From assembly GCA_025361285.1 (NCBI GenBank), contig JANYAP010000053.1, positions 1 to 55,687 on the forward strand: a stretch of 55,687 nt of DNA, given 5' to 3'. The notes below the pieces were generated by a model. That model had not been told where the DNA came from, did not search any database, and saw nothing but the letters and a program-made list of their open reading frames with translations. The stretch is from Bacteroidales bacterium. GTDB lineage: Bacteria; Bacteroidota; Bacteroidia; Bacteroidales; JAAUTT01. Shown here piece after piece: positions 18,729 to 26,979 of the stretch; positions within the stretch are counted from its first letter, which is position 1; each line of letters begins with the position of its first letter. The translations under genes were made by a program, and so were the position numbers.

Positions 18729-21700
18729 TTACAGTTTCTTCTTAACTTCTACTTGCGAGTATCCTTCAATAATGTCGCCAACCAAAATGCCGTCAAATTT
18801 GTGAATGTTTAAACCGCACTCATAGCCATTGGCAACCTCTTTAACATCGTCTTTAAAACGTTTCAACGACCCTAAATCGCCCGAATGTATAACAATGCCA
18901 TCGCGAATAACTCGTATTTTAGTGTTTCTGGTAATTTTGCCTTCGCGAACGTAACAGCCTGCAACAGTACCTACTTTGGTTATGGTAAATACTTCGCGTA
19001 TTTCAATGGTTGCCACAATCTCTTCGCGTATTTCTGGCGAAAGCATACCCTCCATAGCAGCTTTTAATTCTTCAATTGCATCGTAAATAATTGAGTACAA
19101 GCGAATATCTATCTGTTCTTTTTCGGCAAGTTTACGTGCATTAAGCGATGGACGTACCTGGAAGCCAATGATAATAGCATTTGAAGCGGCTGCCAGAAGA
19201 ACATCCGATTCGGATATTTGTCCTACGGCTTTATGAATAACATTTACTTGTATTTCTGGAGTTGAAAGCTTAATTAGTGAATCGGAAAGTGCTTCCACCG
19301 AGCCATCTACATCGCCTTTAACAATTACATTCAATTCCTGGAAGTTACCGATTGCTATGCGTCGACCAATTTCGTCGAGAGTAATATGTTTCTTAGTTCT
19401 AATACCTTGTTCGCGAATTAACTGACCGCGCTTAGTTGCAATTTCCTTTGCTTCCTTAATATCATTCATTACATTGAAGGTGTCGCCAGCCTGAGGAGCT
19501 CCATCGAGCCCAAGTATAAGAACTGGCGTGGCAGGACCAACAACTTTAACTTTCTGATTGCGCTCGTTGTACATTGCTTTTACGTGACCCACAAATGAGC
19601 CTGCAAGCACCACATCGCCTTGTTTTAGAGTACCTTGTTCAACTAATATGGTAACAACGTATCCCCTACCCTTATCCAACGACGACTCAATAACTGAACC
19701 CGATGCCTTTTTATTTGGGTTAGCTTTCAAATCGAGAAGTTCGGCTTCGAGCAATACTTTTTCGAGTAACAGGTCGATATTTAAGCCCGATTTTGCCGAT
19801 ATATCCTGCGATTGATACTTTCCACCCCAATCTTCAACAAGATAGTTGAGTTGAGCCAGCTCTTCCTTAATTTTTTCGGGATTAGCCTCGGGTTTATCAA
19901 CTTTGTTAATTGCAAATACAATAGGCACACCAGCTGCCGAGGCATGATTGATGGCTTCCTTAGTTTGAGGTTTCACGCCATCGTCGGCAGCAACCACAAT
20001 AATTACTACGTCGGTAATTTTTGCACCACGGGCACGCATAGCAGTAAACGCTTCGTGGCCAGGTGTATCGAGGAAAGTCATTTGCTTTCCGTTATCGAGC
20101 TTAACGCTATATGCACCAATATGTTGTGTAATGCCGCCAGCTTCTCCCGAAACTACGTTGGCACTACGAATAAAGTCGAGCAATTTGGTTTTACCGTGAT
20201 CGACGTGCCCCATTACGGTAACAATGGGTGGTCGAAACTCCAAATCTTCAGGTCGATCGGCAACTTCATCTTGCTTTATGGTTTCCTGTAAATCGATAGA
20301 AATAAACTCAACCTTATAATCAAATTCGTCGGCTACAAGTGCCATGGTTTCAGCATCTAACCGTTGATTGATAGATACAAATAAGCCCATGTTCATACAA
20401 GTTGCTATAACTTCGGTAACAGGTACGTCCATCATAGTTGCAAGTTCGTTAACCGAAACAAACTCAGTAACTTTGAGTATGTTTTTGTCTCTTTCCTGTT
20501 GATCGGCCTCATCCTGCATTCTCTGCGTAAATACATCGCGTTTATCACGACGATATTTCGAGGTTTTCGACTTATTTCCTTTATTAGTTAATCGAGCCAG
20601 AGTATCCTTAATTTGTTTTTGAACATCTTCCTCGCTAACCTCGGCACGCAATAATGGGCGGCGTTTTTTCTTGTCGAGAACAGCTCCCGAACCCGCTGGT
20701 TTGGCGTTTTTATCTCGCTTAATAAGTACTGGGCCAGTTCCTGGTTTTTTATCTTTGGCAAGAACAATAGGGCGCTGTTCCTTATTGGCAGGAGCTACAA
20801 TATTTACTTTCTCTTTAAGTTTTTTAATACGAGTGCGTTTTTTGCGCAAATCGTGTTCGCTTTGAGTTGTGGACGCGGGTTTGTCGGATGGTAATTCAAT
20901 TCGACCAACCACTGTTGGGCCAGCAAGTTTCTTTGATTGCGCTCTAATTACCTTAGGACCTGTTGATTGTGTATCATTTTCATCCTCAATAACTTCGTCT
21001 TCAATTTCGGCTTGGTTATCGTCCATCGACGCATTCTGTCGTGATCCTTCAGCCTTATTAGCAGTGGTCGCTCTTGCCTGATGATGTCGTTCCTTTCGTT
21101 CAACATCACGTTGTTCTTTCGATTTTTTTGCTGGGCGAGTACGCTGATTTATAGCATCTAAATCTATTCGTCCTACTACGCGAATGTCGCTTTCAAGGTC
21201 GGAAACCAATGTAAGCGAGTCTTCTGCAACTACTTTAGCTACAATTGGTGGCGCAACAACGGGTTTTGGATGATGTACTTTTTCCTCTTTTACTTTTTCC
21301 TTCTTAACCTCCTTTTTAGCCTCTTCGGGAATAACAGTCTCGCTTTCAGCAATATGCACTGTTTCCTTTTTCGGTTTATGCTCTTTTACTGCAACAGGTT
21401 GTTCATCAACAGCCTTTACTGGTTTGGGTTGAATAATCTCTTGAGCTTCGGCTTGAGGCTTAGAATCCGCTTTTTTCGGTTTATTGAGATTATCGATATC
21501 GATTTTACCTACAATTTTTACATCTGGCTCTTTATCGCGTTTTGTGTCGTAAATTAAAGGAGCCATTTTGCCTGTGCTCGAATCTTTAATAAGAATCTCC
21601 TTTTCAACACTTTCTTCATCATCAATAGTTTCACCTTCGTGAGCTTCGATGGTAACTGCTTCTTTTTTCTCCCTGAAACTGCGGAGATTAACTTTCTCAG

Positions 21701-21890
21701 ACTCTTTTTTTGCGTTAACGTCGGAGCTGTATTCTTTGTTTAAAAGATCGTACAGGTCGGGCGCAACCTTTGTGTTAGGGTTCGATTCGATATCGTGACC
21801 TTTTTTCTTCAGGTAATCAACGATAGTACTAATCCCAACGTTAAATTCACTGGCTAATTTACTAAGTCTTATTTCTTTCTTTTCTGTCAT
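18729..21890 (-). CDS. infB: Translation initiation factor IF-2
   Basis: A GTPase that places initiator tRNA on the 30S subunit. Residues 1-55 are the IF2_N module ([23 protein letters not shown]). Then comes a long, charged, lysine/glutamate-rich linker of about 480 residues, typical of Bacteroidetes IF-2. The G domain has GHVDHGKT (about residue 560), DTPGHEAF and NKVDKP, followed by domains II, III and IV to residue 1053. It is last in the rimP-nusA-infB operon, 68 bases after nusA, and is followed by a terminator. The length is normal for the phylum. Confidence 0.98.
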
Positions 21891-21958: not shown

Positions 21959-23197
21959 TTACTCAAATTCGGTACGTATAATTCTAATTACTTCGCGTAT
22001 TGTTTCTTCTTCTAAATCGGTTCTTTTCACAAGATCCTCTACACCAAGCTCCAGTACGCTCTTGGCTGTATCGCAACCTACGGCTTTAAGTTCGTCGATA
22101 ATCCAGCCGTCGATTTCATCGGAGAAATCGTCGAGGTTAACATCTTCATCGTCTTCATCTTCCGATTCGCGGTAAACGTCAATTTCGTATCCGGTAAGTT
22201 GGCTTGCAAGTTTAATGTTTAAGCCACTTTTACCAATAGCTAGCGACACCTCGGTAGGTTTTAGATATACCTCGGCGCGTTTGTTGGCTTCGTTAAGCTT
22301 TATCGATGATATTTTTGCAGGACTTAACGACCGAGTAATAAACAATTGAATATTACTGGTATAGTTAATTACATCGATATTTTCGTTTCCTAATTCGCGC
22401 ACAATACCGTGTATTCGCGAACCCTTCATACCTACGCAGGCACCTACAGGGTCGATACGTTCGTCGTACGATTCAACTGCAACTTTGGCGCGTTCGCCTG
22501 GTATGCGTACTATTTTCTTTATAATAATTAAACCGTCGAATATTTCGGGAACTTCTAGCTCAAACAGGCGCTCGAGGAAAACGGGCGAAGTTCGAGAAAG
22601 TACAATTAACGGATTATTATTTTTCATTTCAACCCTAAGCACAACTGCTCTAATAGGATCGCCTTTGCGAAAATGATCGCTTGGTATTTGTTCGGTTTTC
22701 GGAACTATTAGTTCGTTGCCGTCGTCGTCGAGAACAAGTATTTCGCGCTTCCAAACCTGATATACTTCGCCTGTAACAATTTCGCCTACGCGATCTTTGT
22801 ATTTTCCGAAGATATTACCTTTTTCGAGTTCCAAAATACGCGATGTAAGGTTTTGACGGAGCGATAGTATAGCACGACGTCCAAAGTCGAAAAACTTAAC
22901 TTCGTCGGTAACATCTTCGCCAACTTCGTAATCGTCGTCTATTTTCTTTGCATCGGAAATAGTAATTTGCAAGTTTGGGTCGGTTATCTCGGTATCTTCA
23001 ACAACGGCGCGGTTACGCCATATTTCGAAATCGCCCTTATCGATATTAATAATGATGTCGAAATTGGTATCGGTACCATATTTTTTCAATAACATGCTTC
23101 GAAACACATCTTCCAGAACGCTCATCATTGTTGCTCTGTCGATGTTTTTTAATTCTTTAAATTCTGAGAATGTTTCTATCAAATTCAGATTTTCCAT
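21959..23197 (-). CDS. nusA: Transcription termination/antitermination protein NusA
   Basis: NusA binds RNA polymerase and nascent RNA and controls pausing, termination and antitermination. The 412 residues contain the N-terminal polymerase-binding domain (about 1-125), an S1 domain (near GEIVTGEVYQVWKREIL), and two KH domains (VGACVGMKGSRI near 277 and LAIGKSGLNIKLA near 320). An acidic stretch (SEDEDDEDVNLDDFSDE) and a short helix-hairpin-helix-like tail follow. It lacks the full pair of E. coli-type C-terminal acidic repeats, as is normal here. It lies between rimP (25 bases upstream) and infB. Confidence 0.98.
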   Translation of the reverse strand: MENLNLIETFSEFKELKNIDRATMMSVLEDVFRSMLLKKYGTDTNFDIIINIDKGDFEIWRNRAVVEDTEITDPNLQITISDAKKIDDDYEVGEDVTDEVKFFDFGRRAILSLRQNLTSRILELEKGNIFGKYKDRVGEIVTGEVYQVWKREILVLDDDGNELIVPKTEQIPSDHFRKGDPIRAVVLRVEMKNNNPLIVLSRTSPVFLERLFELEVPEIFDGLIIIKKIVRIPGERAKVAVESYDERIDPVGACVGMKGSRIHGIVRELGNENIDVINYTSNIQLFITRSLSPAKISSIKLNEANKRAEVYLKPTEVSLAIGKSGLNIKLASQLTGYEIDVYRESEDEDDEDVNLDDFSDEIDGWIIDELKAVGCDTAKSVLELGVEDLVKRTDLEEETIREVIRIIRTEFE

Positions 23198-23222: not shown

Positions 23223-23687
23223 TTAAAAGTTTATGACAACTTTTGTCGATTTAACTTCGTGTAATGATATGATAACTAATTCGGTAACCAATTCGGGGCG
23301 TTTTTTTCCCTCGGCTTTAATTTTCTTTTGTACTTCTAATGTAAATGTTTCATTTTCAGCAGTAATCATTTTCCCCACAGTCTTAAGGCCATTTGCAAAT
23401 ACAACTTCAACATTGCGCCCTATGTTTTTAATGTATTGTTGCCAAACCTTAAAAGGTAGCGATAGCCCTGGCGACGACACTTCCAGTTCATAATCTTCAT
23501 CTTCTCTATTAAAGTTGGCTTCTATAGCTCTGCTTAGCTTAACACACTCGGTAATGTTAGTACCTGACATGCTGTCTATTAGCACTGTAATACTATTACT
23601 AGGCGAAACTGAAATTTCCACCTCAAAGAGGTCGGTTTGCTTTAAATATTCCGACACAAACTCTCTAATTTGCTGAACAGTAATCAT
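23223..23687 (-). CDS. rimP: Ribosome maturation factor RimP
   Basis: A 154-residue assembly factor for the 30S subunit. The N-terminal alpha/beta domain contains the family block EDYELEVSSPGLSLPF (about 79-94), followed by a small SH3-like C-terminal domain. It is first in the conserved rimP-nusA-infB operon, 25 bases before nusA. Its leader has a clear promoter (23746-23776) and a stable UUCG-loop hairpin that ends 13 bases before the ATG, so access to the start may depend on this fold. Confidence 0.96.
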   Translation of the reverse strand: MITVQQIREFVSEYLKQTDLFEVEISVSPSNSITVLIDSMSGTNITECVKLSRAIEANFNREDEDYELEVSSPGLSLPFKVWQQYIKNIGRNVEVVFANGLKTVGKMITAENETFTLEVQKKIKAEGKKRPELVTELVIISLHEVKSTKVVINF

Positions 23688-23700
23688 AATATTAATAAAA

Positions 23701-23720
23701 TAGGGGACCGAAGCCCCCTA
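23701..23720 (-). promoter_or_regulatory. Leader hairpin with C(UUCG)G tetraloop before rimP
   Basis: On the minus strand TAGGGGGCTTCGGTCCCCTA folds into an 8-bp stem (one G-U pair) closed by a C(UUCG)G loop, an exceptionally stable tetraloop. It lies between the promoter and the rimP ATG, with no T-run after it, so it is not a terminator. A role in translation control or mRNA stability is inference. Confidence 0.75.
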
Positions 23721-23745
23721 ACGCGATTGAAAATTAAAATCGACA

Positions 23746-23776
23746 CAAAAGTATAACTTTTTATTTAATGTGCAAA
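23746..23776 (-). promoter_or_regulatory. Promoter of rimP-nusA-infB (TTTG-N19-TACTTTTG)
   Basis: On the minus strand TTTG (23773-23776) is followed after 19 bases by TACTTTTG (23746-23753). This matches both elements and the spacing of the Bacteroidetes primary sigma factor consensus. Confidence 0.75.
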
Positions 23777-23832: not shown

Positions 23833-26800
23833 CTACATCTTATTAGGCTTCCACATATCCGATTGCTCTGATACCCAGAGCCTTAAAAAGCGTCGCCGGT
23901 TTACTCTATTTAAACGTATTGCTTCGAAGTAAATTATTATTTTTCGGAGTACATCGTAATACAATAATATGAACAAAAATGTACAGGTAAACCAAATAAA
24001 CACAAGGTTAAACCAGAAAGTATCGATAAAGTAATTGGCAATACGTTTAACAGGTGCATAGAAATGAGCCCTACCATTATTCGATTCGGGGGTACGAAAT
24101 ATCGCGTCCTTAGTTCGAACCATTTCGTTGTATTGAATATCAAATTCGAGTACTTCCTTTTCGTTAGCAACAATATCGGCCACTTGCCTATTGTAGTATT
24201 TATCCTTAAAATTGATAAACTGTTCTCTACCACCCAATTCGTAAACTAATCGGTAATAGTCGGCGTCGCGCTTAATAATTGCGCTATTATATATTGCAAC
24301 GTAATTGTTTTCAATAGTATTTAAATATTTATTTACACTTGCGCCAACTTTAGAGTTATATAAGGTATTCGATAAGCTATCGATAAGCGTTGGGGTTTGC
24401 ATTCCAAACTGATCGGATAATTTAAAAACTTCAGTTGTAATAATACCCAGTTTTTTTGAAAGTATAGTTTTATCTTTACCCGTTTTAGCTAACCGTTCAC
24501 ATTCGGCTTCGAGGTTTCGCAAGGCAGGTATAGCAAACGATTTGAAGTAATTAGCATTTTTTATTTGAGCCTCCGATTCGTAAAAATGTTTTTCGAACTT
24601 ATTACTTTTGAATTGCGTTACCATTAGCGCCTCGTAAGCCCAGCGCGAGGTCATAAAATCGCCAATAGCTGGCACGTTTTTCTCGGAGGCTATGTGATTA
24701 TGCATTTTATCGAAATCGACAACCACACCACTAAAAAGCAGTTGAGGAACCAAAATAAGTGGAACAAGTATGTATATGGTAACCACCGAATTAAGTCCCG
24801 ATGAAATATTTAAGCCTACTAAATTAGCCCAGCACGAGGTAGTAAAAAGAATAAGCGTATATTGCCAGAACATGCCCTTTATTTCGAGCATTGAATTGCT
24901 AATTACAACAAATACAACTGTTTGCAGAGCCGATATAGCGAAAAGAATAATGATTTTGGAAAACAGGTAACTCGACCGACTTAAATTCAGGAATTTTTCG
25001 CGTTTTAAAATTTTCCTATCCTTAAAAATTTCCTCGGCGCTAATAACCATGCCTAAAAACAACGACACAATTACCGCCATAAACAAAAAAGCTGGGATGT
25101 TTGGGTTTTCGCCAAAAATATAACGAGCCGCACCATCGAAAAACGTAAACCGCTTTGTAAAGTATGCCAGAATAAAGGCTAGCAAAGGAGCTTCGATAGT
25201 ATTAATGAATAAATATTGTTTATTATGAAGTTTTGCAAGTAAATCGCGGCGAAAAAAGAGCTGAAATTGCTTGTAATGACCCGGTATTTTGAAGTTGTTT
25301 CGGGGTATCGACGAGTCGTGCTCTCTCTTTGTTTTGCGCACTTCCACATCTATTTCGTCGATATATTTCTTGTACCATTCCTCGGGTGTAGTTTTACGCT
25401 TACGTGTTAATTTGCCGTTGGCGTCAACCACACGGGCTTCAACAATGCGCAATATCTGGTCGGCATTTATGTTACCGCAATTTAGGCATTCGCTTTCCTC
25501 GGCATCGGCAAAGTGCGACGCCCGTTTGAAATGCGTAATGGCCATTATAGGGTTTCCGTAGTATATAATACGCCCACCTTGATCCATTACCAGAAGTTTA
25601 TCGAGCATTTTAAATACGTCCGACGAAGGTTGATGAATGTTGGTAATTACCAACTTACCTTTTAAGGCTTGGCGTTTTAGTAATGTTAAAATTTTTTCGG
25701 AATCGGACGACGACAAGCCCGATGTAGGTTCGTCGACAAAAAGTATTGATGGTTCGCGAATTAACTCTAACGCAATATTAAGCCGTTTTCGCTGTCCTCC
25801 ACTAAGTATGGTTGTAAAAGCATCGCCAACATTAAGGTCGCGTGCCTCTAACAAATCGAAATCTACCAAAGCCCTCTCAACTACCATGGTTATTTGTTCG
25901 GTAGTATAATCGCTAAAGCAAAGTTTGGCGTTGAAATATAAGTTTTGAAAAACGGTTAATTCTTTAATTAAAAGGTCGTCCTGCGGAACAAAGCCAATAA
26001 CACCCTTTAACAACTCCTTATTTTCGTGAATATCGAAATCGTTAATTCTAATATGTCCTCGTTTGGGTTTAATATTACCATTGAGCACATTAAGTAATGT
26101 TGATTTGCCCGAACCGCTACCTCCAATAATACCTATTAATCGTCCCGAATCCTCCGAAAGATTAAATCGTTTCAAGCCATTACTGCTATTTCGGTAGCTA
26201 TATTCAATATCCTCGGCGGTAAATACAAAATTATTTTCCACTGCGGCTTGAATAAACCTTCCGGCCATTCTACTAAAATAAAGCGACCATATTTTTGAAC
26301 CTTTAATTACCGAACCAGCCGACCAAATATAAGAACGAAAAGGCTTAATATTGTGTCCGTTAATAAATAACACCATATTTCCGGAGTAGCGAAAAAGGTA
26401 TGTATTGGTGCTCGAAATATGCAGCACTACAATCCTTCCATCCATTTTTTCGCATTGCATGTGCTTTATATTCGGATTGTACGACGCTTCGTTGGCATCG
26501 ATAAAAAGAAGCATGTCGTTATCGGTAACCTTATGCAATTCGCCAAATGTAAATGCTTCAATGCTCCGAAAAATCAACTCGTCAATTTTCAATTCGCAAG
26601 CAATGCTGGTAACAATTTTAAGTTCGTTTCCAGTAAGAGCGGATCCTCGGTTAATAAAATCGAGCAAGTAAATAATAGCTATAAGCTTTTGTTCCTGCTC
26701 AAGCTCTTCGTTAATTTGCGAGCATAATTCAACAATTTTTGTGTCGTTGTAGGCATTTTGCTTAGTTGCTTCCACATCGCTCGTGTGCATTAATTCGGGG

Positions 26801-26979
26801 TGGAAGTTAGTAACCTGCTGATCGAAATAAGCGATGTATTTTTTCGCAATATCGTGGCTATATTGCCTATCGAGGTAATCCAACACAATACCGCGCTCGT
26901 TGTCGGAGAAGCCGTTTTTATTTACATCGGCAACTATTGCAAACAAACGCATTAAAGCTTTAAGGATAGTTTCGTTCAC
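23833..26979 (-). CDS. Large ABC transporter, ATPase fused to ABC2-type permease (ABCG-like)
   Basis: A 1048-residue protein. The first 270 residues are a helical region followed by a beta-rich domain, perhaps regulatory. The ATPase has Walker A GGSGSGKST (about 285), signature LSGGQRKRLNIAL (about 391) and Walker B ILFVDEPTSGLSSSD. The signature and the domain order (ATPase first, membrane domain second) resemble ABCG-type exporters. Membrane segments cluster at about 630-800, and a last segment lies near 985-1010 after a roughly 200-residue soluble insert. A four-cysteine-like cluster CLNCG lies near residue 505. Bacteroidetes homologues are of unknown substrate. The start is GTG at 26977-26979, only 12 bases after the T-run of the upstream hairpin, so there is no room for a separate promoter. 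Confidence 0.9.
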   Translation of the reverse strand: MNETILKALMRLFAIVADVNKNGFSDNERGIVLDYLDRQYSHDIAKKYIAYFDQQVTNFHPELMHTSDVEATKQNAYNDTKIVELCSQINEELEQEQKLIAIIYLLDFINRGSALTGNELKIVTSIACELKIDELIFRSIEAFTFGELHKVTDNDMLLFIDANEASYNPNIKHMQCEKMDGRIVVLHISSTNTYLFRYSGNMVLFINGHNIKPFRSYIWSAGSVIKGSKIWSLYFSRMAGRFIQAAVENNFVFTAEDIEYSYRNSSNGLKRFNLSEDSGRLIGIIGGSGSGKSTLLNVLNGNIKPKRGHIRINDFDIHENKELLKGVIGFVPQDDLLIKELTVFQNLYFNAKLCFSDYTTEQITMVVERALVDFDLLEARDLNVGDAFTTILSGGQRKRLNIALELIREPSILFVDEPTSGLSSSDSEKILTLLKRQALKGKLVITNIHQPSSDVFKMLDKLLVMDQGGRIIYYGNPIMAITHFKRASHFADAEESECLNCGNINADQILRIVEARVVDANGKLTRKRKTTPEEWYKKYIDEIDVEVRKTKREHDSSIPRNNFKIPGHYKQFQLFFRRDLLAKLHNKQYLFINTIEAPLLAFILAYFTKRFTFFDGAARYIFGENPNIPAFLFMAVIVSLFLGMVISAEEIFKDRKILKREKFLNLSRSSYLFSKIIILFAISALQTVVFVVISNSMLEIKGMFWQYTLILFTTSCWANLVGLNISSGLNSVVTIYILVPLILVPQLLFSGVVVDFDKMHNHIASEKNVPAIGDFMTSRWAYEALMVTQFKSNKFEKHFYESEAQIKNANYFKSFAIPALRNLEAECERLAKTGKDKTILSKKLGIITTEVFKLSDQFGMQTPTLIDSLSNTLYNSKVGASVNKYLNTIENNYVAIYNSAIIKRDADYYRLVYELGGREQFINFKDKYYNRQVADIVANEKEVLEFDIQYNEMVRTKDAIFRTPESNNGRAHFYAPVKRIANYFIDTFWFNLVFIWFTCTFLFILLYYDVLRKIIIYFEAIRLNRVNRRRFLRLWVSEQSDMWKPNKM

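Follow-up and report, generated by a model that had tools for sequence, protein, structure and literature searches.

The window analysed here, a contig of 55,687 nt from a Bacteroidales bacterium, carries a rimP-nusA-infB operon whose genes and leader all lie on the minus strand, a strand that the first-pass annotation had not given for the leader features. The three genes are rimP at 23223..23687 (NF002531, 153.1 bits with a cut-off of 123; PF02576), nusA with its NusA_N, S1 and KH domains at 21959..23197 (TIGR01953, 383.8 bits, cut-off 253.4) and infB, encoding IF2, at 18729..21890 (TIGR00487, 783 bits, cut-off 424.4), and the rimP AUG is located at 23687. Upstream of rimP and on the same strand lies an ABC transporter gene (23833-26979). 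Its product of 1048 aa fuses ABC_tran and ABC2_membrane, possesses long extra regions outside these domains and begins with a GTG codon in the list of open reading frames.

Immediately in front of rimP, the leader contains the hairpin UAGGGGGC-UUCG-GUCCCCUA (23701..23720, minus strand), a predicted terminator stem-loop recognized by its fold, by a terminator scan and by its conservation in relatives. It is 20 nt long, forms 8 pairs including one G.U pair around a UUCG loop and ends 13 nt before the AUG (23700-23688). Since coordinates, stem, loop and spacing were all recovered, the first-pass annotation described the sequence of this hairpin correctly; it overlooked, however, the U-rich tail UUUUAUUAAU (23691..23700, minus strand), an interrupted U-tract evident from the sequence and from the tail profile of relatives. 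Because this tail comes directly after the stem, the hairpin is terminator-like. A consensus scan of 15 kb returned 17 terminator-like sites with 13.2 expected, and this one has the highest number of G-C pairs among them. As a whole, the leader folds in an only moderately unusual way (z = -2.25, with 7 of 200 shuffles equally good), and no Shine-Dalgarno sequence is seen before the rimP AUG in the window. A small A+U-rich hairpin, CGAUU-N9-AAUCG (23724..23742, minus strand), was found by sequence and fold early in the leader, where the transcript is predicted to begin, and is kept with a shorter loop in the sister genome L002. As a candidate partner structure it was discarded, no conservation being seen beyond this sister genome.

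The predicted rimP promoter consists of a TTTG element (23776-23773, minus strand), which matches the Bacteroidota promoter consensus, a spacer of 19 nt and the box TACTTTTG (23753-23746, minus strand), which is followed after 25 nt by the hairpin. We take the two boxes to be the -33 and -7 elements, respectively, on the basis of the Bacteroidota promoter consensus, and the -7 element is identified by its sequence and by its positional conservation in relatives. By itself the promoter pattern is no rarer than chance (2 found in the window, 3.04 expected). Its place, in contrast, is conserved: 65 of 83 rows, versus 62 of 1660 dinucleotide shuffles, have TAnnTTTG at a distance of 7-32 nt upstream of the hairpin. 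The promoter sequence proposed by the first-pass annotation is present, and TAnnTTTG is also given as a -7 box in PMC9723704. A scan for promoters of the sigma-70 type showed no excess.

Conservation and spacing in the order Bacteroidales

Of 99 genomes of the same order, nearly all of them one per family, 90 yielded a RimP match, and 88 of the stretches upstream of rimP were read; the two left out (G016 and G037) are those in which the RimP match begins at a contig edge. In 84 of these 88 stretches, a script detected a hairpin whose 5′ arm is G-rich. The other four comprise one stretch at a contig edge (L088), one with the motif further up and beyond the reach of the script (L072), one with a shorter stem, AUAGGGAC...GUCCCUAU (L077), and one with a stem of other letters (L081). 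The core GGGGRC-N3-7-GYCCCC is present in 71 of 87 windows and in none of 870 dinucleotide shuffles, and a fixed score threshold of at least 18 is reached by 81 of 87 windows versus 3 of 870 shuffles; in control windows taken further upstream, score and core were each found in 1 of 87. The commonest stem core of the order is GGGGAC/GUCCCC (47/84).

The first-pass annotation had proposed comparing the leader in relatives for covarying stem pairs, and such pairs were found, so that this comparison did not refute the fold. The second pair outside the core occurs in all four Watson-Crick types (TA 25, GC 14, AT 9 and CG 7 of 71) and is Watson-Crick in 55 of 71 leaders versus a shuffle mean of 20.2, a value as high being reached in 0 of 5000 shuffles, which ignore kinship among genomes that are almost one per family. 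Outer pairs 1 and 3 likewise lie above nearly all shuffles, whereas pairs 4 to 8 do not. Behind the stem, T is found in at least 65 of 71 tails at three successive positions, position seven is mostly A (39/71), and the longest U run amounts to 4 in 50 of 84 tails. A U-tract this short could make termination weak. The profile upstream of the hairpin is flat, with no other conserved leader positions among the 71 aligned leaders.

The extra-stable UUCG loop, which the first-pass annotation had treated as a key feature, did not stand up to this comparison: loops vary from 3 to 9 nt, GNRA or UNCG loops occur in 3 of 84 and UUCG in a single one, and by predicted energy (-13.1 kcal/mol) the hairpin of the window ranks 42 of 84. 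Judged from these sequences, the UUCG loop appears incidental and peculiar to the genome of the window. CTTCGG is frequent in the window in general (36 occurrences versus 16.7 expected, above each of 100 shuffles), for which codon choice is the likely cause because most of these places appear to be coding.

The hairpin keeps a steadier distance to the promoter than to the start codon. From the end of the -7 box to the hairpin the median distance is 21 nt with a standard deviation of 5.2 (n = 107), whereas the distance from the hairpin to the start codon ranges from 10 to 112 nt with a standard deviation of 18.0 (108 loci, after removal of only L151 and L157, repeats of L003 and L006). The hairpin is present in all 110 loci scanned, and the nearest long upstream ORF, by a crude call of at least 300 codons, runs on the same strand in 26 of them and divergently in 22. 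A C-run able to pair with the G arm was seen in just 1 of 65 leaders; hence there is neither room nor a complement for an antiterminator. An ATG lies inside 19 of the 65 leaders, and these may be short reading frames.

A tRNA-Gln(UUG) gene precedes rimP on the same strand in 10 of the 88 stretches (L034, L056, L060, L063, L065, L067, L079, L082, L083 and L084), 51-210 nt before rimP and with the hairpin in between, and L086 has a tRNA-Asn gene. Several of these tRNA-bearing stretches have their sole -7 box above the tRNA. The arrangement recalls metY-rimP-nusA-infB of E. coli, with a different tRNA.

Specificity and reach of the motif

In its own genome of 3.2 Mb, GGGGRC-N3-7-GYCCCC occurs at only two places, the second of which lies between a lipoprotein gene and murF and is an ordinary terminator whose U7 is unbroken. 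Among 29 windows upstream of murF in relatives, 14 hold a terminator-like hairpin and 1, that of the genome itself, the core; four members of the genus share a GGGGC stem in front of murF. Since the murF terminators vary, the fixed letters of the rimP hairpin are no general feature of terminators in the order, as judged by this single control gene.

A covariance model was built from 12 elements of equal length, the window sequence not being among them, and within the genome of the window its top match, at 36.8 bits versus 27.4 for the next one, is the window site. Outside its training set the model recovered 55 of 75 elements as sense-strand matches at E <=0.01, so that many true variants are missed. 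It also picks up other terminators of the class, with 23 of the best 40 matches being located at rimP. Across 198 genomes of the class, at least 55 of the 150 RimP places listed (of 176) have a model match just upstream, and in at least 52 of those 55 this match is the best one of its genome among the best 150 matches. Forty of the 95 listed RimP places without a listed match were inspected by eye: 31 carry a hairpin that has GGG in its 5′ arm and is followed by a U-rich tail, one (L146) has a GGAGG stem, and 8 have none or a different stem. In a set of 80 loci, mostly from named organisms, the score was reached in 77 and in none of 80 windows inside the operon. The exact core is present in only 19 of these 80 loci because Bacteroides and its kin use GGGGC...GCUCC; the leader type of B. 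faecis and B. clarus is GGAGGGGC...GCUCC.

Outside the class, where the RimP starts are less sure, a terminator-like hairpin was scored in front of RimP in 16 of 20 genomes of the phylum, and the core is absent from the stems listed for these 20 genomes. A terminator-like stem AGUGGG...CCCACU is found upstream of RimP in L263, L265, L272, L276 and L278 and, by eye, in L268; it is perhaps the rimP-leader signature of another lineage.

A putative attenuator and its relation to known leaders

Leader terminators of this operon have been published for other bacteria as the rimP-leader (Naville and Gautheret 2010, PMC2965389). As described there, the element lies upstream of rimP in the rimP-nusA-infB operon, consists of a short stem with a G-rich 5′ arm, a C-rich 3′ arm and conserved stem letters followed by a T-stretch, shows no visible antiterminator and is placed 4-130 nt from the gene, and in each of these respects the Bacteroidales hairpin agrees with it, including the near-absence of a matching C-run and the distances to the start codon given above. 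The two differ in their letters: the published signature reads GGGc...gCCC, whereas the stems found here are GGGGAC...GUCCCC or GGGGGC...GUCCCC, in which the G-run is separated from the closing C-G pair by an A-U or G.U pair. In the window, the 5′ arm GGGGGC fits GGGc, and in the 3′ arm GUCCCC a U that forms the G.U pair stands between g and CCC. The term 'Bacteroid' is absent from the main text of PMC2965389, the supplementary species lists of which may already include Bacteroidota.

The Rfam family RF01770 ('Gammaprotebacteria rimP leader') contains as its second hairpin GGGCU..AGCCC followed by U7 just before rimP, which is of the same kind as the hairpin described here, and the E. coli K-12 leader with UGGGCUUUAGGCCC-U7 just before rimP scores 102 bits. 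As a 102-position model with two hairpins, RF01770 is nevertheless unlike the window's leader hairpin, and the window copy appeared neither among its own-genome matches down to 15.9 bits (cut-off 47) nor in the scan of the window. An Rfam search of the window returned no match at gathering score. Four sub-threshold matches in 12 relatives, two of them to sraA and overlapping the leader region, were judged to be chance because all lie below the family cut-offs.

For B. subtilis, a review (PMC12288461, citing Mondal 2016) describes autoregulation of NusA by NusA-stimulated termination in the leader and reports NusA to be important where hairpins are weak and U-tracts interrupted. The B. subtilis attenuator is likewise a leader terminator of a NusA-encoding operon, and the sites at which NusA acts resemble the element described here; according to the same review NusA dependence was tested in B. 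subtilis, whereas for the Bacteroidales hairpin we infer it. Termination 31 nt after the start has been reported for the rimP operon of S. agalactiae (PMC4448216), and NusA effects have been reported for E. coli (PMC6511841). In the same phylum, PMC9723704 lists for Flavobacterium psychrophilum a structured element in the 5′ region of rimP that has no Rfam match and is conserved in other Flavobacteriaceae genera; we liken it to the Bacteroidales hairpin by gene and phylum, the listing giving neither structure nor mechanism. The main text of a B. thetaiotaomicron transcriptome paper names neither rimP nor nusA, and no prior description of the hairpin in Bacteroidales was found among the openly accessible main texts searched.

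The leader anatomy, its conservation, the stem covariation and the fixed promoter spacing are all observed features. Given the U-rich tail, the promoter spacing, the divergent neighbours and the lack of a pairing C-run, the element is most simply read as a promoter-proximal intrinsic terminator that lacks an antiterminator. We therefore consider it probable that the element is a leader attenuator of rimP-nusA-infB, a weak intrinsic terminator for which NusA would be the most likely signal; NusA feedback is proposed as the leading signal solely by analogy with the systems above. Start site, RNA length, termination and the role of NusA are predicted from sequence as follows. Transcription would begin a few bases downstream of the TACTTTTG box, and the short hairpin with its G-rich and C-rich arms, followed by the interrupted U-tract, would form about 20 nt further on. 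As a weak terminator it would end some rounds of transcription with the release of a ~45-nt RNA, while the remaining rounds would read into rimP. NusA, as a product of the same operon, may strengthen termination at the hairpin when it is plentiful, and the stronger termination would lower its own synthesis together with that of RimP and IF2. A bolder extension, which we put forward tentatively, would make the stem letters (GGGGAC/GUCCCC) a recognition site for NusA or another protein of the operon, such that the smallest known leader (~45 nt) sets the supply of RimP, NusA and IF2 jointly in the class to which Bacteroides belongs.

For a terminator alone, so high a sequence conservation of the stem core would not be required, and this could point to a different role. 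One reading, which we regard as rather unlikely, keeps the terminator-like attenuator and gives it another reader, be it RimP, ribosomal components, NusG, Rho or a Bacteroidota-specific binder of G-rich stems. The retained core letters speak for it, set beside murF terminators that vary, and PMC2965389 already raises the possibility that the rimP-leader is recognized by its sequence, RimP being one possible candidate; in the accounts given by PMC2965389, PMC12288461 and PMC6511841, however, NusA is the sole factor with a reported effect on the operon. That the hairpin instead stabilizes or processes the 5′ end of the mRNA, with no terminator involved, agrees with its distance of about 20 nt to the promoter, which nearly all relatives keep, but is quite improbable, as neither a U-tract right after the stem nor fixed stem letters are needed for such a role.

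Leader control of the operon was suggested by the first-pass annotation too; its conserved promoter and hairpin stand and are read here as transcription attenuation, whereas its hint at translational control through the start-codon spacing is not supported, because the distance to the start codon varies far more than that to the -7 box. With the stem close to the AUG and no Shine-Dalgarno sequence seen there in the window, the hairpin might limit or guide the entry of ribosomes in a phylum that makes hardly any use of Shine-Dalgarno sequences, and yet this is improbable in view of that variable distance and of a conserved U-rich tail for which translational control has no need. The same-strand neighbour in the window would fit a hairpin that simply terminates the gene before rimP (the ABC transporter or its counterparts) and happens to lie in the rimP leader. 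This reading is extremely improbable, since the hairpin lies downstream of the rimP promoter and is kept in the 22 loci with a divergent neighbour, which largely refute this explanation.

Returning to the attenuator, this kind of switch is already known and the Bacteroidales hairpin adds a new case; the general picture of the operon is unchanged, because switches of this sort have been published for other phyla. It provides a motif for an RNA family that is absent from the Rfam version searched, and the small leader offers a system for studying NusA feedback in Bacteroidota. NusA, IF2 and RimP link transcription, the start of translation and ribosome assembly, and, if the reading is true, a class-wide promoter-proximal attenuator would explain how these three proteins are balanced in Bacteroidota without strong Shine-Dalgarno use.
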